From the NCBI GenBank assembly GCA_000996275.1, contig LCEG01000001.1:62001-126000 (forward strand): a DNA stretch of 64,000 nt, in the 5' to 3' direction. The translations under genes and the position numbers were made by a program. The notes below the pieces were generated by a model. That model searched no databases. It was given only the letters and a program-made list of their open reading frames with translations, and was not told the origin of the DNA. Origin of the DNA: a candidate division TM6 bacterium GW2011_GWE2_42_60. Lineage in GTDB: Bacteria > Babelota > Babeliae > Babelales > Babelaceae. Below are positions 6,756 through 63,758 of the stretch, one piece after another (the first letter of the stretch is position 1; every line of letters begins with the position of its first letter).

Positions 6756-7472
6756 ATGGACGGGCAGTCTTATCGTATGAGTGCACTGTTAAGCAGCTGT
6801 TTTACTCGAACGGTCGATTTTTTTTCGCTTTGGTTTTGGATTACGCTTCTTAAGTTTTTCATATTTACTTTGCAGATGAGCGGCTTTGTTTTTATTTTTG
6901 GTTTTTCGGCACGTCTTTTTATTGGATCTGTCCCCGAAAACCCTCTCTTTGCTTACCCAGAAAGTGCTGATGCCTATTTGACCAGTATCTGGCTTTTCTT
7001 TTTTGCTCTTGGAATTTTCTTTTTGTTTGAATTTTTAGGCGGCATTATTCGGATGGGAGCGGTGCAGGTTGCGTTTGATCTTCAAGAAGATAAACCGAGT
7101 TCTTTTTCACGTCTTGTGATGCATTCACCACTTGCGTGGCGCCATTTCTGTGCAGCACTTTTATTTGATCTGATCGTGTTTGTGGGTCTCTGTTTTTTTA
7201 TTGTTCCGGGGATAGTGTTTGCACTACGGTTTTGGTTCTACCGTCAGGTACTTATCGACAATAAGGTCGGTGCAATACATGCTTTACGGACGAGCGCATC
7301 ATTGACCAAGAATAAGATGAAGCAGCTTTTACCTCATTTCACATTGCAAGGTATTTTGAATGAGCCGATGCTGCATTCAGCAGGTCTTTTGGGGCTTATT
7401 ACACTTCCGGTTGCGACGCAAGCGCATGCGTATGTATATCGCAATTTTTTGACTGCAAAACAGCAGTCTTAA
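6756..7472 (+). CDS. Polytopic membrane protein, paralog of those at 35226 and 37204
   Basis: IVPGIVFALRFWFYRQVLIDNKVGAIHALRTSASLTK aligns with the IFP…RWxF..xxVD…PxxxLxxSWR segments of the other two. Confidence 0.6.
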   Translation: MDGQSYRMSALLSSCFTRTVDFFSLWFWITLLKFFIFTLQMSGFVFIFGFSARLFIGSVPENPLFAYPESADAYLTSIWLFFFALGIFFLFEFLGGIIRMGAVQVAFDLQEDKPSSFSRLVMHSPLAWRHFCAALLFDLIVFVGLCFFIVPGIVFALRFWFYRQVLIDNKVGAIHALRTSASLTKNKMKQLLPHFTLQGILNEPMLHSAGLLGLITLPVATQAHAYVYRNFLTAKQQS

Positions 7473-9283
7473 CCACATCGTTGGAAAAAACGTTCAATAT
7501 CATACTGGGTAAATCGCCAGGTTGTTGGGCGTCCATGCGGGCACGTTGTGCGATGTTCTATTGCACCCAATTTTTCAATTAACTCGAGCATCTCTTCTTG
7601 AGAAAGAACGTCCCCCGCTTTGACCGCTGCTTTGCAGGCCATCATCGCGCGTAATTTTTCATATAATTTTTCTACAATATTGGTCTCTTCAAGTGTAAAC
7701 CCTTCCAAAATCCAGTGAGCTGCAGTGCGGACAATGTCCGTAAGGTTGCTGTTTTTGAGGGGTGCCGGGACCGCGCGTACGGTGATACGATTTTCACCAA
7801 AAAGTTCTATTTCTATTCCCTGTTCATGAAAAAACGGAAGATGCGGCAAGAGCGCATTACATTCTTCTGACGAGAGCGGAATAAGTTGTGGGAAGAGTAA
7901 TTCTATGGGTGCTAACGAGCCAAAGCGCGTTGCAAACAGTTCATACAAAATACGTTCATGCGCCGCGTGTTGGTCAATGAGGAGAAGCCCGTCTTCATTT
8001 TCAACGAGAAGATAGGTGTTTAAAAGTTGTCCAATAAGCCGTGCTGATGAAGATGTTGTTTGAGGGACGAGGGTATCTTGTTGTTCATGAACGCATTCTT
8101 CTGTCGTACAGCACTGGTTGTTTTGATTTTCGAGTGGTGCAGCGTTATAGTTTTGGAACACGTTTTTAAAGGCCGTTGTTGGCATGGTAGGATTAAAAGC
8201 TGGTCGCGTTGCGGGCCGAAAACTAGAAGTGTGTGCATATTCAAAATTATTTTGTCTTTGTGCTCCAAGATCACTTTGTACGGTGTTATCAAGCGTTGTG
8301 GCAATTGTTTCTTCGATAAAGCGTTCAATACGAATCGGATGCAAAAATTGCACTTCTTCTTTGCGTGGGTGCACATTAATGTCCACCTCTGCGTGAGGCA
8401 GTGTCAAAAAGAGTGCGCCGATGGGATATTGCTGTGGTGGAAGAATATTGCGAAAACCTTTGATAAATGCCTGGGCAAGTTTATGGTTTTTTACCCAGCG
8501 GCGATTTACAAAGCAATAGATCTGATTTTTGTCATAACGGGTGCGACTCGGGCGTGTAAAGAGCGCTGAAAAAGTCAGGGGCGACGTCTCTTTTTGCTCA
8601 AGTGTTTGATTGCATGAGAGTAAGTGGGGGACAATAGCAGGTTCAAAAAGTTGTGACATTCGTTCTGTAAGTGTGGTACATGAGGGGCAGAGTAGTATCT
8701 GCCGGCCATTGTGATGTACCGTAAAAGTACATGAGAGATTTTCGAGTGCAACGGCAATGATTAATTGGTGCAAAGCGCGCCACTCAGTCTCATCTTTTTT
8801 TAAGAATTTTTGTCGTGCAGGAACATTATAAAAAAGATTGCGAGCTGTAATATCGGTACCTTGATTACACGCAATAGGAGCGGTTGAGACAATTTCGCTA
8901 TTTTCTACGGCAATAGTGATACCAAGGTGGTTTTCTGCAGAGCGTGTTTTGAGGGTAAAGTGGCTGACTGCTGCGATGCTTGCGAGTGCCTCTCCGCGGA
9001 AGCCAAATGTAGTAATGGCAGAAAGATCTTCAACGGTTGTGAGTTTGCTGGTTGCATGATTTTGGATACAGAGTTGTGCATCATCTTCTGTCATTCCACA
9101 GCCATTATCGATGATACGAATGAGGTCTTTGCCTCCTGCTTCAAAGAAGAGTGTGATTTCTGTAGCCCCTGCGTCGAGAGCATTTTCAATAAGTTCTTTA
9201 ACAACACTTGCAGGGCGCTCAACAACTTCTCCAGCGGCTATTTTTTGTATTTCTGAAGGTGGTAAAAGATGAATTTTTCCCAT
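7469..9283 (-). CDS. mutL: DNA mismatch repair protein MutL with endonuclease motif
   Basis: IAAGEVVERPASVVKELIENALDAGA, GFRGEAL; C-terminal DQHAAHERILYE, ACKAAVKAGD and CPHGRPT. Confidence 0.95.
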   Translation of the reverse strand: MGKIHLLPPSEIQKIAAGEVVERPASVVKELIENALDAGATEITLFFEAGGKDLIRIIDNGCGMTEDDAQLCIQNHATSKLTTVEDLSAITTFGFRGEALASIAAVSHFTLKTRSAENHLGITIAVENSEIVSTAPIACNQGTDITARNLFYNVPARQKFLKKDETEWRALHQLIIAVALENLSCTFTVHHNGRQILLCPSCTTLTERMSQLFEPAIVPHLLSCNQTLEQKETSPLTFSALFTRPSRTRYDKNQIYCFVNRRWVKNHKLAQAFIKGFRNILPPQQYPIGALFLTLPHAEVDINVHPRKEEVQFLHPIRIERFIEETIATTLDNTVQSDLGAQRQNNFEYAHTSSFRPATRPAFNPTMPTTAFKNVFQNYNAAPLENQNNQCCTTEECVHEQQDTLVPQTTSSSARLIGQLLNTYLLVENEDGLLLIDQHAAHERILYELFATRFGSLAPIELLFPQLIPLSSEECNALLPHLPFFHEQGIEIELFGENRITVRAVPAPLKNSNLTDIVRTAAHWILEGFTLEETNIVEKLYEKLRAMMACKAAVKAGDVLSQEEMLELIEKLGAIEHRTTCPHGRPTTWRFTQYDIERFFQRCG

Positions 9284-9348
9284 AAATGCAAGCAATAAAA
9301 ATATTATAAGAGAGCTGTCAGTATGACCATAGTTTACTGTAAAAGCTT

Positions 9349-32516: not shown

Positions 32517-35108
32517 TTAGTTTGCAGAGATGATAACGATTTGGAAATCAACATCTTTAGGAGTTAGTACAACGGCTGAACTTTCTACGGCGTAAACTTC
32601 AATTGTATTTGCGGTAGTAAATCCATCAACAGTAAGAGTTGTTGTTGATCCACCACCAACTGCAAAAGGATTTGCAAAACCGACTATGAAGTTAGCTCCA
32701 GGGTTTAGGGTAATCTGATAATGGCCGGTTCCTATCCTAGAGTAGTTTATATCATCTGTATACGCGGTCCATACTCCGCCATGTAACAGTCCACTGCTTA
32801 TACGTGTTGATGAATAACTTCCCGAACTGCCGCGTATTGAGCCTGCAACTTGTAATTCTTTTGTCGATCCTACAAAGAACGATGCGCCAAGAGAGCTTGC
32901 GTTGCCTATGAAAATACGATTATCGTTGAGAGTTCTTCCTGCTGAGCCAATGCAGATGTCGTTAGTTGAAGTTGCAGTAAGTGATGAGCCTGCTGATGAA
33001 CCTAAGCAGATATTTGATGTTCCTGAGGTAATTGTAGATCCTGCACTTGAGCCAAGAGCAGTGTTGTCAGTCCCTGTGTTATTTGCGGCAAGTGCGCTTC
33101 TGCCACATGCGGTATTATTTGTGCCAGATGTGAGAGCTGTCAAAGCCCCCACGCCAAAGCCTGAGTTGTTACCGCCGGTTAACAATACATTTGTATTTCC
33201 AGCATTATCGCCAACAAAGATATTGGTTGCAGGAGTTGGTCCGGTGTGGTGAATGTAAGGATTGCTTGAACCACCTTCAGTGATAACCGTTGTGGCATCA
33301 AGATGAATGTTATTATAAAACTCAACCGTACCGTTCCCTCTGATAGCCATACGTGGTGTTGGGACTGTATCGATTAATTGGCTGGTTCCCATTACGATTG
33401 CGCCAAACCCAGATCCAAGTGGAGTGTCAGGGCCAAGTGTTATCTGTGCAGTTCCATAGGCACCCGCGCCAGTACTTGGGAAAACAGAGGTGCCGGCGAC
33501 ATCATAGTAGTTAAATGAGAGGTTTATTCGGTCGAAAGCAGTTACTCCGAATGCTGCGACGTCTTGATTAGTCCACAAGAAACCTTCTTCTCTATTGCCT
33601 GTGTTTACTGCAAAAGTTTTCTTGGCTGCCATGTGCATATTGTTAGATAGCGTTACATCTCCAATGAGAGCAGAAGTTCCATCAACAACGAGGTTATTGT
33701 CGCCTGGAGCAGAAGTTCCACCAACATGAAGCCCGCCAGAGGTAGTGCCGACAAAGGCGCTGCCTGTTGTGCTTAAATCACCTGTAAGCGTGAATCCACC
33801 GGTTGTTGAAGTTGCAAGACGGTCTGTTATTGGGTTGATACCGACGAGATTAAGAGCATTAGCTCCATCGGATTGATTTACACCACCGATGTAGCAGCCA
33901 GTTTGAGAATTGGCACCCAAGCGGGTTATCTTAGTTTCAGCAGCGATGCCTGCAACGCCTGATCCAATACAAATATTGTCGTTTTCTGTGCTGGTATAAT
34001 TTGATCCGGCGTTGTAGCCGATGAGGGTGTTGTTGCTGCCTGTGGTAATGCCTGCGAAATTAGTGGATCCTGCGTGTCTCCCGAGTACAGTATTCTGATT
34101 GCCGGTGGTGATAAATGCACCTGCGTGAGCACCAAGCGCAGTGTTTTCATCTCCCCCAGTTGCGCTTTGCAGTGCACGGCGTCCAATGGCAGTATTAAAG
34201 GTTCCATCTGTTAAAGCTAGCAGAGCGCCAACACCAAAACCTGCGTTTTCGCCGCCAGTGGCTGTAAGATTTCCCGCACTGCTACCAACAAAAATATTGG
34301 TGATAGGAGTTGGTCCTGTGTGGTGAATGTAAGGGACTCCAGCTTCTTTTACTACAAGCCCGTTTTCGAGACCGCCTGGTAATGTTTCAAGACGTGCGAG
34401 TTCAGCGCCGGCATTGTTGTGGAAAAGTATTGCAATGTCAGTGTCTGGCGCAATTGGTTCAAGAATAATGTCGTCATGGAAGATAGTTGTGCCGACAATT
34501 GTGCCGGTGATGGTGCCATCAACCACGAGATTACCTCCAACATGGAGATTGTGGTCGATATTGACATCGCGAGCAAGGGGGTACAATTCTTCTGGGTTTG
34601 ATTGTGAACCGATATCTGGCAATGGATTAAGGCCTCCTGGTTCAAGAGCTGGTCGTGGTGCACGGAGTTCTGAGTCTGTTTGTACGGTAATAAGAAGCGC
34701 TTCTTGTGCAAGCAGATCTTTACATTCATTAAGGCCGGCAACGATGGTACGAAGTTCTTCGTCGTTAGCGATTGCATCGTGGTGTTTTTCCAAGACAAGT
34801 GTTGCTTCTTCAACTGCTTGTTTTACAACTTCTTGTGATGCTGTTTTATTGTTTTTTGCAAAGCGTGATGCAAGCGTTTGAAGCGCGTCAGATTTTTCTT
34901 GAGCTGTTGCAAGAGGAGCTATTTTACTGATTACGGTTGCAAGGGGACTGAGCTCATTCCCTATAAAAAGGTACGGTGATGAGGCACGTACTACCTCACT
35001 GACCTCTTCAGCAGAAAGTGCTATGCGAAGGTCTTCGCCTGCGCTGATGGCTGCGCCACCACATAAAAGAATAAACGCGCAGAATATGCGCTGTAAAGTG
35101 TGCTTCAT
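32517..35108 (-). CDS. Large secreted repeat protein with YadA-head/tail-fibre-like NTAxGxxAG repeats
   Basis: Signal peptide MKHTLQRIFCAFILLCGGAAISA, SD AAGGAGAGG; two YIHHTGPTPxTNIFVG…GFGVGAL…NTAxGR.AL modules. Confidence 0.75.
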   Translation of the reverse strand: MKHTLQRIFCAFILLCGGAAISAGEDLRIALSAEEVSEVVRASSPYLFIGNELSPLATVISKIAPLATAQEKSDALQTLASRFAKNNKTASQEVVKQAVEEATLVLEKHHDAIANDEELRTIVAGLNECKDLLAQEALLITVQTDSELRAPRPALEPGGLNPLPDIGSQSNPEELYPLARDVNIDHNLHVGGNLVVDGTITGTIVGTTIFHDDIILEPIAPDTDIAILFHNNAGAELARLETLPGGLENGLVVKEAGVPYIHHTGPTPITNIFVGSSAGNLTATGGENAGFGVGALLALTDGTFNTAIGRRALQSATGGDENTALGAHAGAFITTGNQNTVLGRHAGSTNFAGITTGSNNTLIGYNAGSNYTSTENDNICIGSGVAGIAAETKITRLGANSQTGCYIGGVNQSDGANALNLVGINPITDRLATSTTGGFTLTGDLSTTGSAFVGTTSGGLHVGGTSAPGDNNLVVDGTSALIGDVTLSNNMHMAAKKTFAVNTGNREEGFLWTNQDVAAFGVTAFDRINLSFNYYDVAGTSVFPSTGAGAYGTAQITLGPDTPLGSGFGAIVMGTSQLIDTVPTPRMAIRGNGTVEFYNNIHLDATTVITEGGSSNPYIHHTGPTPATNIFVGDNAGNTNVLLTGGNNSGFGVGALTALTSGTNNTACGRSALAANNTGTDNTALGSSAGSTITSGTSNICLGSSAGSSLTATSTNDICIGSAGRTLNDNRIFIGNASSLGASFFVGSTKELQVAGSIRGSSGSYSSTRISSGLLHGGVWTAYTDDINYSRIGTGHYQITLNPGANFIVGFANPFAVGGGSTTTLTVDGFTTANTIEVYAVESSAVVLTPKDVDFQIVIISAN

Positions 35109-35225
35109 ATGCACCTCTCCTTGTAAAAAAAGAACTTCGTTTACCAATTTGGCTACTACCTTGGTCACTATAATCACCAAACGACAAAAAAGTCTAGATC
35201 CTGTTTTGGAATATTTTGAGAAAGA

Positions 35226-45332: not shown

Positions 45333-48300
45333 ATGAAGCACATAATCCATACGTTTTTATTATTTTCAATTGGATTGATGGGGGGCGGCTCCCTTTTTGG
45401 TGGGTTGCTTGACGAGATTAGCCCGTTCCCAACAGGAAAGACCGCTTCGACAGCATCTTCTCAAAAAACAGCAAGCGAGGGCGAAGAAGTTTCTAATGTT
45501 GAAAAACAGATTAGCTTTTTCGAAAAAAAACTTGCTACGTATGCTGTTGAAGATGTAACAGCAGAGCGCGAGAAGGTTGCTACAGAGCTTGCTAAACTTA
45601 AGCAGCGTGAATTACATGCATCGCCAACCGATCGCCTTTTTTTACAAAAAAAATCAGCAATTGTCAGTAGTCTCTTCCAGGTTTTGGATGATCTTCGTAA
45701 AGTTCAAACAAAATTAGTCGCCGTGGTGACTGAGCATCGCGACATACTAAAGCAATCAATTATTGCGGCACAGACACAGCCTAAAAAAGATGACGAACAT
45801 CGCACTAAGGCAGCTCCAACGTTTGATGATGTTCAAAAAGAAGGGAAAAAAGTTGTTGATTTGCGTGAGCAGATTGAGAAACTTAAAAAAGAGCAGAGCA
45901 GTATTGCTTCTGGCCAAAATAAACGTAAAAAAGCTCTGGATACAATAAAAAAAGAATATGAAGAGAAGAAAGCCCAGAAAGAATCTTTTTCGCACACAGA
46001 AGAGCTTTCTGATGAGATGCAGGGTTTAACAAAAGTTCAACAGGGTGAGATTCTTGATGAGCAATTGCGTCTTTTAAGATATCGTCGCGAGCTTGAGAAA
46101 TCAAAGCTTGATGAGGGAGAAGAGCGTATTAAGTTAATAGAGACAAAACTTCCTCACGATTTGAGTGACCTTGATTCTGCTTATAAGCGCATTAAGCGCA
46201 CCGTTAAAATTGATCAAAAGCAGGTTAAAGACGAAGAGGTTTTGTTAGAAAAAGAACGAACAGAGGCTGAGGCAAAGAGAGCCCGTATTGCCGAGGATAG
46301 GCGGTTACGTGAGCAGCAACTTGAAGAAAAGAAACAAGAAATAGCATCGCTTGAAAAACAGGCCCATTCGATTCTTGGTGATACAGCCGTTTTGTCTGAG
46401 TGGAAGTTTGACACTGCAAAATTAAAAAAATCAAATGATTGGGCGGTTGTTTGTAAATTGGGTCTTTTAATTGCACAACAAAAAACTATCGAAGCTGAAT
46501 TGCAAGGTCTTGATGCGAGCTCAGATGAAGTTAAATATGCGCTTCAACAGAAAACCCTCAGAGTTGAGATTCTAAAAACGTGGCGTCGACTTACGAGGCG
46601 AGAGCTGCGGTTAAATGTTTCTGAGGCGCTTGAGGAGGCACAGAGAAAATATGAGTCACTTGCGTCCCAACTTAAAGCAGCTCGTGCTGAGTGTAATGAT
46701 GATCGTGAAAAAGCAATAGCGACGTTTAACGATCTTAACAAAATACGTAAAGAGATCAGAAAACTTACTAAGGTCCTTAAGGGGTTACATAATACTCCCT
46801 TAAACACCGAAGACCCAGCGGAAAGGGCGGCTTTGGGATCGCTTCTTGAAGCGGACAGAGAACTGAATACGCGCATAGAAGTTACGACAAAGTTGATGGG
46901 GTCACATGCAAATAGCCTTGCGATTATTGAAGATATGCTCAAAAGTATTGGGGAGATAACACGAGAAGTTTCTGAACGGACTTTCTGGATGCGGTCCGGA
47001 CGATCACTTGAATGGAGTGATTTTGGTGAATTTTGGCCTAATGTACAAAACTTTTTTGGCGAGTTGAAAAAGTCTGGCAAGGCATTTTGGGAAAAATTAG
47101 AAACCAAGACATTTGAAAAAAAGACAGCAGCACTTTTTGGAGATGTGTATCACATCGTGAAATTCTTCTTGCAGCTTCTTATATTGTTGCTCGGGTTCCT
47201 GTTGCTTCAAAGATACCTGCCTCAAGTGCGGGATTATTTCTTGCAGGAAGGCTCGAGACATCGCCTATTTGGCTCAGTACGCTTTTTTATAGGTATTGTT
47301 CTTGGTTTTATGTTGGCGCATCTTAAAGGGATCTATTTCTGGGGTGTCTTGCTTCTGGCGGGTGTGTTTGTAGAGATACATTCGTTTTTTGTTATTCTTT
47401 TTTATCTCTTTTCAATACCGTATCTACTCTTTTTGGCCTCTGCTTTCTTCAACTATTTTATGCGTGTTAACGAGACGCATGGCCATCATTTTGTGAATGA
47501 ACAATCTAAGAGACGGTTTGAGTTGGTGGTGCCAAACTTTGTCTATGTGACCATTGTGCTTGTTTTATTTCGGCATGCCTTTATCTTGGGAAATGATTTT
47601 TCATCACAGGTTCCTGAAATTCTTTTAGCGCTTAATTTTATTTTGTTCCAATTTGCACTGATCGCATTAATTAGCAAAGACAGCCTTATTGGGCAATCTT
47701 CTGTTCTGGGTGTAGTTTCTCGTTCATCACCGTTTGGCAAGTGGCTTGAAGAGCGTATTAATCGTTATTATTATGCGTTCTTAGTTGCCTTGGTTGTTGT
47801 TATTTTGGCCATCAACCCTTGGATTGGGTATGGCAGGCAAGTACTCTATGTTCTGTCGCGGTTGATTGTTTCGCTCTTATTACTGCCTCTTTTTTCGTGG
47901 GTGTATGAGAGCGTTAAGCGTGCGTCATCAGATTTCTTTTTTTACTACCCCGATGGGCTTGTGGTCAAAGAGCGCTTTGGTGGCGGAAAAATGTGGTATG
48001 GCTTTTTTATTATCGCCTCATTTGTAATCTTTGTTTTTATTGGAATCTTTCTGTTTGGGCGTATTTGGGATCAGGGGCTTGCGCTCAAAGATCTTCCAAA
48101 AATCTTTAAATACCCGCTCTATATTTCTGGTATTGACGAGTTGACGGGTCAACCGATAAAAGTAACGCTTACCTCTTTATTAAATATCGTCTTTTATCTT
48201 CTTGGTGGTTTTAGCATTGTATACGTTATCAATCGCTTTGTTTTACAGCGTATTTTTGATCCATTGCTCGTAGGTTCTGGCGTTCAGAGCACTATTATGA

Positions 48301-48992
48301 CGTTGAGCAGGTATGCGATTGTTATTATTGCTCTTTTGACAGGGCTTAATAGCGCGGGGCTTGGTGCGATAGTCTCAAAGCTCTGGTTTATTATTGGTGC
48401 GATTGCTTATGTTATTCGAGAGCCGTTGGGCGACTTTTTCTCCTATTTTATTATTCTGGTGCAACGGCCGATTAAGATTGGTGATTATATTGAGCTTGAT
48501 GATCCACCTGTGCAGGGGGTGGTGCGCCATATTACGCCACGGCTTACGGTTATTCGCCATAAAAATAGCGTGACCTTCTTGGTGCCTAACTCGACGATTA
48601 TTACTAAGACGCTTCGCAATTGGCACTATTCTCGCTCGTTCAGTGCTGTTGACGATATTACGTTGGTGATCGCCTATTCTACTGACCCTGAAAAAGCAAG
48701 ATTGGTCATGCTCCAGGTGCTTGAAGAACATCCGGCGATATTGCGTAATCCAGCGCCTATTGTCTGGATGACGGGGATGACTGAAAATGGGTATACTTTT
48801 ATGGTGCGAGGCTTTGTTTCGTCAGATCGTATTATGGATAAATGGGATGTTGAATCACAGCTTCGTCTTGCATTAGTTAAAAAATTGCAGAGCGAGCATA
48901 TCCCCTTGGCGTGTCCTATCCGTATTATTTCGATGAACCAATTTTCGGATGGAAGTATGGCTCAAGATCAGAAAATTGGGAAAAAAGAATAG
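45333..48992 (+). CDS. MscS-family mechanosensitive channel with long N-terminal coiled coil (MscK-like)
   Basis: Signal peptide, about 550 aa of coiled coil, multiple TMs, then GDYIELDDPPVQGVVRHITPRLTVIRHKNSVTFLVPNSTIITKTLRNW. Confidence 0.88.
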   Translation: MKHIIHTFLLFSIGLMGGGSLFGGLLDEISPFPTGKTASTASSQKTASEGEEVSNVEKQISFFEKKLATYAVEDVTAEREKVATELAKLKQRELHASPTDRLFLQKKSAIVSSLFQVLDDLRKVQTKLVAVVTEHRDILKQSIIAAQTQPKKDDEHRTKAAPTFDDVQKEGKKVVDLREQIEKLKKEQSSIASGQNKRKKALDTIKKEYEEKKAQKESFSHTEELSDEMQGLTKVQQGEILDEQLRLLRYRRELEKSKLDEGEERIKLIETKLPHDLSDLDSAYKRIKRTVKIDQKQVKDEEVLLEKERTEAEAKRARIAEDRRLREQQLEEKKQEIASLEKQAHSILGDTAVLSEWKFDTAKLKKSNDWAVVCKLGLLIAQQKTIEAELQGLDASSDEVKYALQQKTLRVEILKTWRRLTRRELRLNVSEALEEAQRKYESLASQLKAARAECNDDREKAIATFNDLNKIRKEIRKLTKVLKGLHNTPLNTEDPAERAALGSLLEADRELNTRIEVTTKLMGSHANSLAIIEDMLKSIGEITREVSERTFWMRSGRSLEWSDFGEFWPNVQNFFGELKKSGKAFWEKLETKTFEKKTAALFGDVYHIVKFFLQLLILLLGFLLLQRYLPQVRDYFLQEGSRHRLFGSVRFFIGIVLGFMLAHLKGIYFWGVLLLAGVFVEIHSFFVILFYLFSIPYLLFLASAFFNYFMRVNETHGHHFVNEQSKRRFELVVPNFVYVTIVLVLFRHAFILGNDFSSQVPEILLALNFILFQFALIALISKDSLIGQSSVLGVVSRSSPFGKWLEERINRYYYAFLVALVVVILAINPWIGYGRQVLYVLSRLIVSLLLLPLFSWVYESVKRASSDFFFYYPDGLVVKERFGGGKMWYGFFIIASFVIFVFIGIFLFGRIWDQGLALKDLPKIFKYPLYISGIDELTGQPIKVTLTSLLNIVFYLLGGFSIVYVINRFVLQRIFDPLLVGSGVQSTIMTLSRYAIVIIALLTGLNSAGLGAIVSKLWFIIGAIAYVIREPLGDFFSYFIILVQRPIKIGDYIELDDPPVQGVVRHITPRLTVIRHKNSVTFLVPNSTIITKTLRNWHYSRSFSAVDDITLVIAYSTDPEKARLVMLQVLEEHPAILRNPAPIVWMTGMTENGYTFMVRGFVSSDRIMDKWDVESQLRLALVKKLQSEHIPLACPIRIISMNQFSDGSMAQDQKIGKKE

Positions 48993-50979: not shown

Positions 50980-51058
50980 TCCACCTGCTTGAAGTTGCAG
51001 TCCTCTGTGTGCTAGGGTAAGACAAGATATGTTTTACTTTGGTAAAAAGGAGTTTGCG

Positions 51059-53263
51059 ATGAAGGTGAATAAGTTTTTTCATAAGGGCTTGGCTGGAGGA
51101 GCTTTCACACTACTTCTGTTGTGCACTTTTGCACGCGCCGAGGTATTTAGTGATTTTGCGCAGGCGCTTGATGGTGTTGCAAAAACTGCAGTTTCCGCAG
51201 AAGCGTCCGGGATGACTGAAGAATCCTTTAAAGACCTCAAGATTGACTATGATTTCGAGGAGATGAGAAAGATCTTTCAAGAGATAGTTAGTGAGTCAGA
51301 TTCAAAGGAAGATGAGCCAAAGAAATCTTCGGAAGAAAGAGAAGAGGACCCGTCTTTAGGTGCTGAGACAGAAAGTTCTGTTGGAGAAGAGAAAAAATCA
51401 GGCGTCTCTTTTTCAGATGAGTCTTTGAACAAAAAAACAGAGAGCAAAGAGGAAAAACAATTTAAGCGGAACAAAGAGCTATATGGCGAACTCTTTCCAC
51501 GTAAAGAGGACCCGTCTTTAGGTGGAAAGACAGAAAGTTCTGTTGGAGAAGAGGGAAAATCAGGAGTCTTTTTGGTCCCAGCGGTGAAAGAACCGCAATC
51601 TCCTGAAATACCAGAATTTATAGAAGAGAAAAAAGAAACTAAGATTGAGCCGAATCCAGAAGCGAAGAAGCTTCCGATTGATGAGCAACTCAAGTTTAAA
51701 AAAGAACAAAAAAAGTCCGAAGAAAAAACGAGTGAGCCTTCATACAAAAATGTGCTGAAGAAGACGGAAAAGGTTGAAAAGACTGAAGAGAAACAACCTG
51801 GTGAAAAAACGATAAAAGTTCCGGAGAAAGAAAAAAACAATTCAAAAATACATACACTTGAAGAGTATGCACAGTGGAAAGAAGAGCTGATTAAAGAAGA
51901 TAAACAACTTATTAATGCTATCAAAGCTATCCCTCCGCTTCAGCGAGATAATGTTTTATTAACGACTTTGTTTGGTGAAAAAGAACCTACTAAAATTCTT
52001 TCAGTGACAGAAAAATTAAGAGAAGCTGCTCGCGCGGGTCTCAAAAAGAGCAACAAAGGAAAAGCTCTTAGCGCCCTTAAATTTACTGACGAAAAAACGG
52101 CAAAAACGGCAATTCTCGCCTTTGGCCGTGTCGAGCCACTTTTAATTGAAGATCTCATAAAAATTTGGCGTGCAAAGAGTGGGGCGTTTGAGGATAAAAA
52201 AGGGTACGGTTTTATCGAAGATCTCTTTAGCTACACGCTTGCAATTTTTAAATACTACTTCCAAGATCTTTGTAATAAAATGCCATATCTCAGAGGAAAA
52301 GCGGCGAGCGATGCGCGTGCCGATATCAACCGTGTTCTTATGTTCTACAAAACAATCTCACCCCTTTTAAGGGAAGCAAAAGTAGCGCAAGATGAAGCGC
52401 GGCTTCTGGAACAAAATATTGATTCAGGCGAAGAGAAATTTATCGATTCGATTGAATCAATTCTTAATGAATTGCGCACGTTGTGCGAAGACCCTTGTAT
52501 CCAAGAAGGGCTTGGTGTTATTGGTTTTACCAAAGAAGAAGTTGAACAAGCACTCAAGTCGGAAAAATCAAACCGAGTCTGGTGCCGTGCTGGGAACTAT
52601 GTATTTAACAATGAAATAAAAGAAGATGATAAAGAGCATACCCCTGAAACAACTATAAAAGAAGTAATTTTTAGTAATGGAAACATTCTTGGTTACAAGA
52701 CTGAAACCGATACAAATTTTGTTCCTGGCGATCCGGAAAAACTTGGCTTGCGATACTATATGCCCTTTAATTTTGATGTAGAAAGAATTCAAAAAATCGT
52801 AGAAGAATTGGTAAAAAATTCTGAAAACACGCAGTCGATTAAGTATCAAGTTTTGAGCATGCAGCTTTTGAACGCTGTTAACACGCTTGTTGGATATGCA
52901 CTTTCTGACAGTACCTGCCCTGTCTGTTTTACTCATTCTTTGGCATTAGATCCACAAAGCGCTTCTACTATGAGCAAGTATTTACAGAGTGCAGAAAATA
53001 TTATCACAACTTTGCCAGAGTCTGTTTCTCGGGAAAAGGCGCTGATGGGGATTAAAGTATTGCTTGAGATTATTAAAAAACAGGTGGAAGTTGACGATAT
53101 AACCACTCATATTGCAACTTATATCGATCAGCCACAATTACAAGAAGAAGAACAAAATAAGTTAAGCAAATTATTGCCTGGTATTCAAGATACTCGTTTA
53201 ATAAACGGTTGCTTCTGGGTTCGTCGTTTTTCTAAAAATGCGAAAAATTGGCTTAACCTTTAA
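51059..53263 (+). CDS. Secreted Lys/Glu-rich hypothetical protein with internal repeat
   Basis: Signal peptide MKVNKFFHKGLAGGAFTLLLLCTFARA; EDPSLGxxTESSVGEExKSGV occurs twice. Confidence 0.65.
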   Translation: MKVNKFFHKGLAGGAFTLLLLCTFARAEVFSDFAQALDGVAKTAVSAEASGMTEESFKDLKIDYDFEEMRKIFQEIVSESDSKEDEPKKSSEEREEDPSLGAETESSVGEEKKSGVSFSDESLNKKTESKEEKQFKRNKELYGELFPRKEDPSLGGKTESSVGEEGKSGVFLVPAVKEPQSPEIPEFIEEKKETKIEPNPEAKKLPIDEQLKFKKEQKKSEEKTSEPSYKNVLKKTEKVEKTEEKQPGEKTIKVPEKEKNNSKIHTLEEYAQWKEELIKEDKQLINAIKAIPPLQRDNVLLTTLFGEKEPTKILSVTEKLREAARAGLKKSNKGKALSALKFTDEKTAKTAILAFGRVEPLLIEDLIKIWRAKSGAFEDKKGYGFIEDLFSYTLAIFKYYFQDLCNKMPYLRGKAASDARADINRVLMFYKTISPLLREAKVAQDEARLLEQNIDSGEEKFIDSIESILNELRTLCEDPCIQEGLGVIGFTKEEVEQALKSEKSNRVWCRAGNYVFNNEIKEDDKEHTPETTIKEVIFSNGNILGYKTETDTNFVPGDPEKLGLRYYMPFNFDVERIQKIVEELVKNSENTQSIKYQVLSMQLLNAVNTLVGYALSDSTCPVCFTHSLALDPQSASTMSKYLQSAENIITTLPESVSREKALMGIKVLLEIIKKQVEVDDITTHIATYIDQPQLQEEEQNKLSKLLPGIQDTRLINGCFWVRRFSKNAKNWLNL

Positions 53264-57980: not shown

Positions 57981-58574
57981 ATGGTTTTATTGATTGATGG
58001 TTATAATGTTTTACGAGTTGGGGAAGTGTCTCGTGAACAGAGTGATCGCGAAATACGGTGCTTTTTGCGACGGGTTGCAACCTATGCATCCGCTAAAAAG
58101 CACGAAGCAATTGTCGTGTTCGATGGAGGTTTAAGCCCACATCCAAAACGGTGTTTTGAAGACGGCGTTACCATCATTTACGCCGGGCATTACCAGCGAG
58201 CTGATGATGAGATTATGCGATTGTTACATACCTATCAACCAGGAAGTCTTCTTGTTATTTCTTCAGATCATGAAATAGAGAACTGCGCGCATGGTGCAGG
58301 AGTTGTTACCATGGATGCTCTTGCATTCCGACAACTTTTATGGGATAAAGGGACCCTGTTAAAGGGTAAGGCGAGTGGATTAAAGGCAGCGCCGGGTCAG
58401 GCTCAAAAGCGTACTGGGCATAAAAGTTCACCAGAAATCGATGCGCTTATGGAACAAGCTTCTTCTAAAATGATGGTAAAATGGGATGATATGGAGCCAG
58501 CTTTAAAAGAAAAACATGAAAATAAAAAGTCGAAGCGTGAACGTGAACTTGAACGGGTGATCAAAAAGCTATGA
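57981..58574 (+). CDS. NYN/YacP-like PIN-type RNase domain protein
   Basis: VLLIDGYNVLR, IVVFDGG, ADDEIMRLLHTYQPGSLLVISSDHEI. Confidence 0.8.
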   Translation: MVLLIDGYNVLRVGEVSREQSDREIRCFLRRVATYASAKKHEAIVVFDGGLSPHPKRCFEDGVTIIYAGHYQRADDEIMRLLHTYQPGSLLVISSDHEIENCAHGAGVVTMDALAFRQLLWDKGTLLKGKASGLKAAPGQAQKRTGHKSSPEIDALMEQASSKMMVKWDDMEPALKEKHENKKSKRERELERVIKKL

Positions 58575-59011
58575 AAAAAATATATGACAATACAATATGT
58601 GGGATAGAAGAAAATCTTGGAGAAAATCTTATTGATCGACTCTATCAAGAACTTAAACAGACGGCCGTTTTTGCCCTTTCGGGGCCTTTGGGCGCAGGGA
58701 AGACAACGCTCGTTCAGGGATTGCTTGCACGTGCTGGAATTACCGATTCTATTCAGAGTCCAACCTATACGTATGTTATTCCTTATACTGCTCCTGATGG
58801 AACGATTTTTTATCATTTTGATCTCTATCGGTTAAATTCTCTTGAAGATTTTGTCTATTCAGGTTTTGATGAATATCTTTTTCAACCGGGAAGTAGGGCT
58901 CTTATTGAATGGCCCGAAATTATTAAGCCTCTTTTGACTCATGATACCTGTTTTATCGAGCTTGATTATGAAAGTGCTAGTTCTCGGCGGATATCTGCTT
59001 TTTGTATCTAA
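58571..59011 (+). CDS. tsaE: tRNA threonylcarbamoyladenosine biosynthesis ATPase TsaE
   Basis: LSGPLGAGKTTLVQGLLARAGI, SPTYTYV, HFDLYRL, LIEWPE. Confidence 0.93.
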   Translation: MKKIYDNTICGIEENLGENLIDRLYQELKQTAVFALSGPLGAGKTTLVQGLLARAGITDSIQSPTYTYVIPYTAPDGTIFYHFDLYRLNSLEDFVYSGFDEYLFQPGSRALIEWPEIIKPLLTHDTCFIELDYESASSRRISAFCI

Positions 59012-59088: not shown

Positions 59089-59589
59089 ATGAAGAAGTAT
59101 ATTACTAGTATTTGTTTGTTGGTGACGTGTTGTATTTTTAATGGCTGCTGTAAAGGGCCGAATAAGCCTACGCCAAAAGAGCTGCAACCTACGTCTACAC
59201 AACCTATAGCCGAAGGAATAAAAAAGATGTCTCGCGAAACGTTTGCATCCGGTCTTATCAAAGAAATTACTACCCCTGGAGACGAGTCGGCCGCTCGGCC
59301 TGCGAAGGGACAACGAATTTCAGTACACTATACTGGCTATCTTAACGAGAATGGTGTTACTGGTCGTAAATTTGATAGCAGTGTTGACCGTGGAACTCCG
59401 TTTGTTTTTGAGGTAGGTGTTGGTCAGGTTATTCGTGGTTGGGATGAAGGTCTTGCCAGTATGAAAAAAGGTGAAAAAGCGCGCCTACTAATACCTGCAG
59501 AACTTGGCTACGGTGCTCGAGGCGCTGGAGCAGTTATTCCACCAAATGCAAATCTTATTTTTGATGTGGAATTATTAGAAATTCTGTAA
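59089..59589 (+). CDS. FKBP-type peptidyl-prolyl isomerase, lipoprotein
   Basis: Lipobox-like CIFNGC; VHYTGYL…GRKFDSSVDRGTPFVFEVGVGQVIRGWDEGLASMKKGEKARLLIPAELGYG. Confidence 0.9.
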   Translation: MKKYITSICLLVTCCIFNGCCKGPNKPTPKELQPTSTQPIAEGIKKMSRETFASGLIKEITTPGDESAARPAKGQRISVHYTGYLNENGVTGRKFDSSVDRGTPFVFEVGVGQVIRGWDEGLASMKKGEKARLLIPAELGYGARGAGAVIPPNANLIFDVELLEIL

Positions 59590-59660: not shown

Positions 59661-62009
59661 TTAGGCGGCAGGAGCAATAAGATCAACGGGAACGGGGGCT
59701 TCTTGTTTAGGAGTGAGCCAGTCGATAAACTGTCTGCGTTTTTGTTCATTTTTAAACCACCAAGGATGTTCACCGGGTACAAGTTTAAAGGTTCGCGTAA
59801 AGGTTCCATCGGCATTATCAAGCACTTCGACGTTGAAGTTGGTGATGCGACCGCTTGTTTCAGCTTCTAGTTTGGTTGGCTCAAAGAAGTGGGTAGCTGC
59901 AATAATAGTGCTTTGTTTGCTTTGAATAATCTTGCCAAAAGCATCGTGCACAAGCGCTTCGGCGGTCTGTTGGACGGTCCCTTTGATGGTTTCGTCTAAA
60001 ATTGCAAAACTCAATTCTCCGGCAGGCAATTCTGTAATTGTTTCAACCATAAGATCAAGTTTGTATTTTTCTGCTACTAAGGTCGACATGTCGTCATGCT
60101 CACGTTCTTCGAGATAGACAAGAAAGCGATTGACTGGAGCGAGCTCTATCTCACCGGGGGCGATACAGAGTGTTTGAGCTTCAATAATTGCTTGCGCGAC
60201 AGCCTTCATTGTTTTTGTTTTTCCGCAGCCATTTCCACCCGTAAGAAGAATATTTGCATTACCGTTGAGGCCAAGATGAAGGGAGTTGCAAATGGCTTTT
60301 TTGGGGCCAATAAGAACGTTCCAGAAGTTGTTGAGTTTGATGAAAGGGACTCGTTCTTCGGCGAATTTTGCAATAGTATAATGGACGTTCTGGTTTTTTG
60401 TTGAATGAACTTGGAAGGCGGCGGCGACATTGGTGTCGACTTGCCCAATGGCATAGAGCATTTCTACCAGGTCATACTTTAGTTCGGACATGAGTGTATT
60501 TGTAGCAAGTGCATTGCCTGGTACATTGGCAAGCAGTGAAGGGTTTTCTGAGAATGCAGGTGATTTGAGTGATCGAATGAGGCGGCCCATATCAGAAGTA
60601 GTTGTTTGTTGCGAAAGAAGCTCTTTGAGAGGAGTTATGAGTTCTTGAAGTTCTGGGCAGTCTGCTTCGTCAATAACTTGCTTAATCTCTTCGCATCCTT
60701 CAATAATTCGGGCAACCCCGGCAAGTTTTGTCTGGAAACTTTTAATAACTGCTCCATATATTTTTTGAGTCATGATGAAGCCGTAAATTCCAAACGCACG
60801 AAAAAAATCTTCAATAACCAGATTTCCACCCGCAATGACATAGCTTCCGATTACAGATTTAGTCGATGGTTGCGGAACTATGCGATTGAGTTTTTGTCGT
60901 TTTTTATCGATCCAAAGCGTCCGGAAGTCTTCGATCTTCCCTAATTGCCCTAAGAGCGCAGTATCACCAAACGAAAGGAATTTATGGCCTTTGTGATGGG
61001 TAATATGCATGCGATCATTATTTATCTTTTCTTTATTGTAGCCATATAAAGTAGGTAGATGTCTTACGACTTCAAGAACAGCGCTATCGAGGATTGTTTT
61101 GAGTGGGAAGAGTGCAAGAATACCGAGCTTTTTAAGAAAGTTGGGTTGTCTTTTGAGTTCCTTCCCGCAATGTTTTCCTTCGTAAGCGATGCATCCAAAT
61201 GTGTGGAGTGGTATAAGGCTTATGAGTGATTGTGCTTGAGAAACGAAGTAATAGAGGGAGAGCGCCGAGGTGCTCTTGTTAAGGTCTTTTCCAATACTGA
61301 TATTAGGAAAATAGAACATATCAAGAAATTGTTTTGCCATCTGATGATGTGTGTTGAAAAAGGTGAGATAGTGTCCTTGTCCAGAAGCTATTTTCTCGAG
61401 TGATTTTTGAAGTTTAGCCAGCGTTTCTGGGTGCTCGACAAGATAGGTAACCAGCGTTTTTCTTTTCTTAAGTTCAATAAGAGACGTTTGAAGTGTTACC
61501 AGTTTTTCTGCCGTATTAATTTTCCCAAACAATGTTTTTGTGGGAATAGTGGCGAGAACACTACTGCTTCCATCTTCGCTTTTCAATAAATTAAGCCGCT
61601 TGATGGTTTGTGGTTCGAGCAAAACAGCTTTGTTTGAAAGTTCAAAAGGATGTTTTTGTGTAAGTAAATTGATATAAAGGCCAAGGCATGATGATTCTTC
61701 AGGAGTTTTTTCACTCTCTTCAAGTATTTTAAGGATATTGAATTCTTCTGTTTGAGCTGGTTTGTCTGGTTGGGTTGCAGAAGCATCAAGTTGCGGAAGA
61801 ATATCTCTTTTTTGCTGTTCAAGAAGGGAGTTTATATCGAGAAGTTCTGGTGCGAGAATATCGCGATAAATATTTGGGCCTTTATTTGCGTGAGCCGTTG
61901 CCGGAACGCCTATTGAACTACCAAGTATGAGTTGAGTGGTGCTAAAAAAAACAAGAATACTTGTTAGTTTTAATCCAAAATTTAGGGCATTAAAAGTTTT
62001 ATTATTCAC
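59661..62009 (-). CDS. MutS-type ATPase domain protein with N-terminal signal peptide
   Basis: ILLTGGNGCGKTKTMKAVAQA (Walker A), LSFAILDETIKGT (Walker B), IIAATHFFE; N-term NFGLKLTSILVFFSTTQLILGSSIGVPATAHA. Confidence 0.8.
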   Translation of the reverse strand: MNNKTFNALNFGLKLTSILVFFSTTQLILGSSIGVPATAHANKGPNIYRDILAPELLDINSLLEQQKRDILPQLDASATQPDKPAQTEEFNILKILEESEKTPEESSCLGLYINLLTQKHPFELSNKAVLLEPQTIKRLNLLKSEDGSSSVLATIPTKTLFGKINTAEKLVTLQTSLIELKKRKTLVTYLVEHPETLAKLQKSLEKIASGQGHYLTFFNTHHQMAKQFLDMFYFPNISIGKDLNKSTSALSLYYFVSQAQSLISLIPLHTFGCIAYEGKHCGKELKRQPNFLKKLGILALFPLKTILDSAVLEVVRHLPTLYGYNKEKINNDRMHITHHKGHKFLSFGDTALLGQLGKIEDFRTLWIDKKRQKLNRIVPQPSTKSVIGSYVIAGGNLVIEDFFRAFGIYGFIMTQKIYGAVIKSFQTKLAGVARIIEGCEEIKQVIDEADCPELQELITPLKELLSQQTTTSDMGRLIRSLKSPAFSENPSLLANVPGNALATNTLMSELKYDLVEMLYAIGQVDTNVAAAFQVHSTKNQNVHYTIAKFAEERVPFIKLNNFWNVLIGPKKAICNSLHLGLNGNANILLTGGNGCGKTKTMKAVAQAIIEAQTLCIAPGEIELAPVNRFLVYLEEREHDDMSTLVAEKYKLDLMVETITELPAGELSFAILDETIKGTVQQTAEALVHDAFGKIIQSKQSTIIAATHFFEPTKLEAETSGRITNFNVEVLDNADGTFTRTFKLVPGEHPWWFKNEQKRRQFIDWLTPKQEAPVPVDLIAPAA

Positions 62010-63236: not shown

Positions 63237-63758
63237 ATGAAACAGTGGTTTGTTATCCAGGTACAGGTTGGAAGTGAAGAGATTGTTCAGGCGGATCTTT
63301 CAAAGCGTGTTGAAGAGACAGGGCTTGAAGATTTGTTTGGACAGATACTTATTCCATCTGCAAGAATTCGGCAGTTTTTTAGTCCCGAGGAGGCTGATCA
63401 AGATCAGCAGCTCTTTCCGGGCTATATGCTTATTGAGATGGAGGCGACTCCAGAAGCAATTCGACTCGTGGCCATGGCGCCGCGGGTTGTACGTTTTCTT
63501 GGTGGAGCTAACCCTGTGCCGCTTTCTCAAAAAGAAATTGATCGTGTTTTAGCTCAAGTTCGCGGTGAAGTAACAGTCACGGCTGAAAAACTGCAATTTG
63601 AGGTTGGAAAAGAGGTCGAGATAAAGGATGGAGCATTTGCTGGATTTGTTGGTATCATCGACTCTGTCGATGATGAAAACGAAAAGCTGATGGTGATGGT
63701 GAGCATTTTCGGAAGAATGACACCTGTGGAATTGAGTTTTGATCAGATTAAGCGCTAG
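63237..63758 (+). CDS. nusG: Transcription termination/antitermination protein NusG
   Basis: WFVIQVQVGSEE…FPGYMLIEM…VGKEVEIKDGAFAGFVGIIDSVDDENEKLMVMVSIFGRMTPVELSFDQI. Confidence 0.95.
   Translation: MKQWFVIQVQVGSEEIVQADLSKRVEETGLEDLFGQILIPSARIRQFFSPEEADQDQQLFPGYMLIEMEATPEAIRLVAMAPRVVRFLGGANPVPLSQKEIDRVLAQVRGEVTVTAEKLQFEVGKEVEIKDGAFAGFVGIIDSVDDENEKLMVMVSIFGRMTPVELSFDQIKR

Follow-up and report, generated by a model that had tools for sequence, protein, structure and literature searches.

MutS-type ATPases are normally cytoplasmic and bound to DNA (or the ribosome), and the periplasm is usually thought to be without ATP. An initial annotation of a 64,000-nucleotide stretch of contig LCEG01000001.1 (referred to here as the window), from the candidate division TM6 bacterium GW2011_GWE2_42_60 (genome size, ~1.14 Mb), described a MutS-family ATPase whose N terminus reads like a cleavable export signal. 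Babelota/Dependentiae, the group to which this organism belongs, are intracellular parasites of protists. The locus raises the question of what a MutS-like ATPase could do outside the cytoplasm, and what it would use as fuel and substrate there. The open reading frame was recovered at the coordinates given in that annotation, and its features are as follows.

59661 to 62009, minus strand: CDS of a putative exported MutS-like ATPase, 782 amino acids, GTG start
61887 to 62009, minus strand: signal-peptide-like N terminus, residues 1 to 41, with predicted cleavage between AHA and N near residue 41
61290 to 61610, minus strand: first half of MutS domain III, residues about 134 to 240 (Pfam MutS_III in family members; hhalign to MutS1)
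60735 to 61289, minus strand: variable hydrophobic region at the MutS clamp position, residues about 241 to 425, containing ILALFPLKTILDSAVLEVV (KD19, the hydropathy of a 19-residue window, 1.74)
60255 to 60734, minus strand: lever (latter half of domain III) with the connector leading to the ATPase, residues about 426 to 585 (hhalign to MutS1)
59784 to 60248, minus strand: MutS domain V ATPase, residues 588 to 742 (Pfam MutS_V)
60216 to 60239, minus strand: Walker A, GGNGCGKT, residues 591 to 598
59991 to 60008, minus strand: Walker B, ending ILDE, residues 668 to 673

The ATPase signatures attributed to the C-terminal region were found as originally quoted (GGNGCGKTKT, FAILDETIKGT, and ATHFFE, the ATH motif lying at residues 705 to 707), and the Pfam MutS_V match scored 40 bits against a cutoff of 30.2. 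MutS_III was only hinted at in the window protein (residues 134 to 207; E = 0.16) and was detected at an E value of ≤0.001 in 29 of 30 members of its family, in which the first half of domain III carries the motif TxTxxGxxxLxxxLAxP...RQxIIK. When the family was aligned with MutS1 by hhalign, the match covered MutS1 columns 279 to 815, from domain III to domain V (probability, 100%; E = 4e−47). With both domain V and domain III present, the window protein is, as judged from its sequence, a MutS superfamily ATPase. Because the alignment starts at column 279, domains I and II are absent from the family, and the reported lack of a mismatch-recognition domain was borne out by Pfam and hhalign alike. 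No Pfam match to MutS_I, MutS_II, MutS_IV, or Smr was obtained in the window protein or 30 family members, nor did those 30 members show a peptidase domain. The nearest NCBIfam models were MutS, MutS2, and KamC, all scoring far under their cutoffs (TIGR01070, MutS, 26.7 versus 641.7; PRK05399, MutS, 39.4 versus 480; TIGR01069, MutS2, 24.9 versus 400; and KamC NF052383, a weak match to residues 586 to 710, 26 bits versus 300). PADLOC returned only P-loop noise.

A search for paralogs in related parasites, which the initial annotation had proposed, placed the gene in a large family. A profile built from 30 members had matches at an E value of ≤1e−50 in 77 of 95 Babelota/Dependentiae genomes, with 1 to 8 matches per genome and about 160 in all (a single gene broken into pieces may account for some of these), and nearly all full-length members bear a signal. 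For example, family open reading frames of 778, 831, and 702 amino acids occur in Candidatus Babeliales bacterium RS_18_31 (L158/G102) and in G071, a genome from the same order as the window's. Since 18 of the 95 genomes had no strong match, the family is not universally essential. A looser BLAST count, 91 of 102 genomes, probably includes some cross-hits to ordinary MutS. At the profile threshold, there were no matches in 117 genomes around a Dojkabacteria record or in 97 around a Chthoniobacteraceae record, and the matches in twelve genomes of various other groups were all partial, with scores of up to 154 bits. As far as searched, with two other phyla sampled in depth, the family is confined to Babelota/Dependentiae by this profile measure. 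In a tree of ATPase domains, all 41 sampled family rows formed one group (support, 100/99), apart from MutS1, a MutS2-like group, and other MutS-like proteins, while the MutS1 of Babelota fell with other bacterial MutS1.

A close-relative scan of genome contigs with the window protein as the query produced no matches, and in an alignment scan ordinary MutS dominated among the matches listed, which also led to the RS_18_31 genome. Matches on viral contigs were rejected as family members, as they were 24 to 35% identical, scored like ordinary MutS, and lay mostly on contigs ending near mutS. Many of these viral contigs (L217 to L295) end shortly past the mutS match, as if phage-like clusters adjoin mutS; tailocin clusters beside mutS in Pseudomonas would presumably fit this pattern.

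The catalytic residues of the family are nearly invariant. Among 108 full-length members, the Walker A lysine (K597 in the window protein) is conserved in 107, the trans signature serine in 106, the Walker B aspartate (D672) and glutamate (E673) in 106 and 103, and the switch histidine in 102, a pattern that supports ATP binding and hydrolysis by these proteins. Such conservation bears on the possibility that the window protein stays in the cytosol, or is a degenerating copy of MutS, and that its N terminus is hydrophobic by accident, for which one could cite its GTG start, preceded by no clear Shine-Dalgarno sequence, and its Walker A sequence GGNGCGKTKT, which departs from the family consensus GPNaGGKST. 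We regard this as very improbable, given the catalytic residues, an N-terminal character shared across the family (see below), a locus conserved across families of the order, and an own-genus ortholog with 39% identity along almost the entire protein. The phylum-wide comparison and the near invariance of the catalytic residues largely refute gene decay.

The proposed export signal also stood up to comparison. In the window protein, it consists of an n-region, NNKTFNALNFGLK, with two lysines; an h-region, LTSILVFFSTTQLILG, with a 16-residue hydrophobic stretch; and a c-region, SSIGVPATAHA, followed after the predicted cleavage by NK. The h-region is weaker and the c-region longer than the family average, and the signal as a whole is weaker than in most members. 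The GTG codon is the sole in-frame ATG, GTG, or TTG upstream of codon 130, where domain III starts, so that no downstream start could drop the hydrophobic segment. Neither this nor the other outcome that would have undercut the original reading, an uncleaved cytoplasmic N terminus, was indicated by the sequence. Hydrophobicity was scored as KD12, the mean hydropathy of a 12-residue N-terminal window, with the start codon left free within 40 codons and all sets treated alike. By this measure, 99 of 108 full-length family members reached a KD12 of ≥1.8, versus 4 of 151 for true MutS and 19 of 119 for neighbor proteins of the cytosol; most of these 19 are MurA (14 proteins; median, 2.47), and with MurA excluded the neighbor count falls to about 5 of 105. 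The nine members under the cutoff are mostly signal-like by eye. The N-terminal hydrophobicity of the family is, on these sequence counts, far beyond chance, and a start codon artifact was rejected on the strength of the sole GTG and the 99 hydrophobic N termini. The hydrophobic N-terminal segment is single in 104 of 108 members, with a second, which would turn the chain back to the cytosol, in just 4. By a simple rule, an AxA-type site frequently terminates this segment (51 of 90 members). The predicted Sec-type export of the family from the cytoplasm is thus strongly supported at the sequence level.

In MutS dimers, the signature serine completes the ATP site of the partner subunit. Because this trans serine is conserved in the family, its members are likely to act as dimers. 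The second family member of this genome, which lies outside the window (C1:7838-12292; L127:839-5293), is a protein of 1,484 amino acids that combines one signal peptide with two tandem MutS-like ATPase units, an arrangement that supports the dimer. A counterpart of this tandem double, with 1,546 amino acids, is present in a congener (G013), and the two units group together in the tree (100/99). The same genome encodes a true MutS1 of 822 amino acids without a signal (L128). In addition, a MutL-like open reading frame with a canonical MutL N terminus lies in the window at 7469 to 9295 on the minus strand and points to a separate cytosolic mismatch repair pathway. Since mismatch repair appears to be covered by this cytosolic pair, DNA mismatch repair is an unlikely role for the exported family.

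Where MutS has its DNA clamp, members of the family carry a variable segment of about 80 to 240 residues. A KD19 of ≥1.3 occurs there in 84 of 108 members, versus 11 of 151 true MutS proteins at the equivalent distance, and a KD19 of ≥1.6 in 39 of 108 versus 2 of 151; 24 of the 108 members have no clamp-position peak at 1.3. In 32 members, two hydrophobic segments lie close together in a hairpin-like arrangement. The initial annotation noted that the protein would have no obvious DNA substrate outside the cytoplasm unless it acts in the host. With domains I and II and the clamp missing, and a hydrophobic segment in place of the clamp, DNA is probably not the substrate, and there is no paradox in this. 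Contact of the lever tip with a membrane through this segment is suggested with moderate confidence by its hydropathy.

Where the ATPase sits depends on how often the chain crosses the membrane. It could be a membrane protein that passes outward at its N-terminal segment and back again at one internal transmembrane segment, leaving the ATPase cytoplasmic, and that works like transmembrane MutS-like proteins of other phyla. Three such proteins of ~610 to 630 amino acids were checked: two (L302 and L303) have several hydrophobic segments near the N terminus and/or residues 210 to 262, and the third (L301) has one near the N terminus and one near residues 210 to 262. Moreover, 31 family members have exactly one internal peak of ≥1.6. 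Both halves of domain III, however, flank the clamp region and are conserved as in MutS1, so both should sit on one side of the membrane, which makes it likelier that the chain crosses an even number of times or not at all; a cytoplasmic return would split them. The single N-terminal segment with its frequent AxA-type ending also argues against this topology, and in the tree the exported family is not nearest to proteins of the L301-L303 type. In a positive-inside comparison, the K plus R frequency per residue was 0.146 before the paired segments, 0.128 in the loop, and 0.148 after them. We consider a cytoplasmic ATPase unlikely; it is more likely, judging from the two conserved halves of domain III, that the whole mature protein lies outside the cytoplasm with even or zero crossings.

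Structure models were weak. A single-sequence fold of the window protein was uninformative, with a pLDDT of 33, and a fold made with an alignment of 39 MutS sequences (the A2 model) reached 54 overall. In the latter, ATPase residues 581 to 730 were mostly at a pLDDT of 65 to 85 and the first half of domain III was at 70 to 86; the region from 301 to 570 was below about 50, and a long helix at 400 to 449 was of low confidence. Foldseek matched the A2 model to MutS structures, a result that is partly circular because the alignment consisted of MutS proteins.

The gene's surroundings are conserved on both sides, with the following flanking genes identified by Pfam and gene order.

58571 to 59011, plus strand: tsaE, in the conserved flank atpG-yacP-tsaE, MutS-like gene, nusG
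63237 to 63758, plus strand: nusG, at the opposite end of that conserved flank

In 15 other genomes, spread over several families of the order, the block murA-atpG-yacP-tsaE ... nusG-rplK-rplA contains or adjoins a family member, an arrangement shared with the window that places the window gene at an ancestral locus. At a second recurrent site, found in 15 genomes, a gspF-like gene precedes the family gene in the same orientation, with a gap of ≤160 nt in 11 of them; this adjacency may hint at secretion or may simply be old gene order. Pairs of this kind (e.g., at L058, L061, L065, and L068) are often near a HIT-family gene. In the window, positions 59089 to 59589 on the plus strand encode an FKBP-type isomerase with a lipoprotein-like signal (FNGC), its 3′ end toward the MutS-like gene, which would be another exported folding factor at this locus. 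Large open reading frames with signal-peptide-like N termini are also present at 32517 to 35180 (minus strand, 887 amino acids), 45333 to 48992 (plus strand, 1,219 amino acids), and 51029 to 53263 (plus strand, 744 amino acids).

The initial annotation reasoned that an exported ATPase would have no obvious ATP unless it acted in the host. Gene content speaks against that restriction: NTT-type ATP/ADP translocase genes were found in 92 of 95 Babelota genomes, with four matches in the window's genome, and in none of 14 control genomes. As these genes are nearly universal, host ATP should cross the periplasm and be available at the outer face of the inner membrane, provided that the translocases function as they do in other energy parasites. 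Secretin genes, present in 91 of the 95 genomes, also provide a way through the outer membrane.

With such a route, the protein might be an effector exported beyond the parasite, acting inside the host cell in the cytosol, at the mitochondrial surface, or on DNA. ATP is present in the host cytosol, the family shows the expansion and divergence common among effectors, and both the secretins and the gspF-like neighbor would suit this reading. Secretion is assumed for many Babelota proteins that bear signal peptides (PMC6561590, PMC4378268); Chromulinavorax has signal sequences in 44% of its CDS (PMC6561590), and Babela has 79 secreted ankyrin proteins (PMC4378268). Yet no feature sets host-delivered proteins apart from periplasmic cargo, the gspF adjacency may be mere inherited gene order, and the family often has one copy at the ancestral locus, unlike typical lineage-specific effectors. 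A direct role on host DNA is in any case unlikely, as the DNA-reading domains are missing. We give an effector acting inside the host a small share of the probability.

On balance, the family is probably an exported, dimeric MutS-type ATPase specific to Babelota, working in the periplasm or where parasite and host meet, with levers tipped by a membrane-seeking hairpin. A Sec-type signal peptide would take the protein out of the cytoplasm, where its MutS core (domain III plus domain V) would dimerize and form composite ATP sites as in MutS, as the cis and trans residues and the tandem double suggest. ATP binding and hydrolysis would shift the lever arms, by analogy with the MutS family and in keeping with the tandem double. 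At the lever tips, the hydrophobic, often hairpin-like segment that stands in for the DNA clamp would most likely touch or enter a membrane. The fuel would be host ATP, met in the periplasm en route to the translocases or in the host cytosol. Such a protein would likely serve as an ATP-driven machine for remodeling membranes or proteins rather than in DNA repair, with the parasite envelope or the parasite-host interface as the favored site of action. The strongest form of this proposal, a phylum-wide mechanical ATPase derived from MutS, located outside the cytoplasm, fueled by host ATP, and equipped with a membrane-inserting tip in place of the DNA clamp, is tentative, and we would lean slightly against accepting it whole.

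If the proposal is true, a MutS motor has been rebuilt for an extracytoplasmic job in a phylum-wide, multicopy, catalytically intact branch, and the notion that energy parasites do ATP-driven work in their periplasm becomes directly testable. The family is also a conserved and concrete candidate for the means by which Babelota affect their own envelope or their hosts. An exported MutS-like family goes unmentioned in papers describing Babela (PMC4378268), Chromulinavorax (PMC6561590), and the ecology of Babelota (2025; PMC12172432), which is no proof of novelty; the Chromulinavorax paper names mutS just as a repair gene (PMC6561590), and the signal-bearing families reported from Babela are numerous and include one that joins an ATPase to a peptidase, but none that is MutS-like (PMC4378268).

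Several known systems resemble the family in part. Like MutS1, it has domain III and the domain V ATPase, the trans signature serine, the Walker B DE pair, and the ATH motif; unlike MutS1, it has no domains I and II, its clamp was not found and gives way to a hydrophobic segment, and it has a signal peptide. MutS2 also combines a MutS core with the lack of a mismatch-recognition domain, and as an endonuclease or ribosome-collision factor it is a precedent for a MutS core acting on a target other than mismatches (PMC10897456). The family differs from MutS2 in having no Smr match, in forming a separate branch of the tree, and in its predicted export. L301 to L303, from Nitrospira, Pirellula, and Acidobacteria, apparently represent a membrane-bound MutS-like group in other phyla and share a MutS ATPase with hydrophobic segments near the N terminus and the clamp position. 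Two of these three have more than one such segment in one or the other place, however, and they occupy a separate branch and have a presumably cytosolic ATPase. KamC, the reactivase ATPase of lysine 5,6-aminomutase, is likewise a MutS-type ATPase repurposed away from DNA, but its 508-residue model has no signal, and no aminomutase context was seen for the window protein. The secreted ATPase family of Babela is a comparable expanded Babelota family with an ATPase and predicted signal peptides, in which an AAA domain is fused to a Ulp1-like peptidase (PMC4378268), whereas the ATPase of the family described here is of the MutS type.
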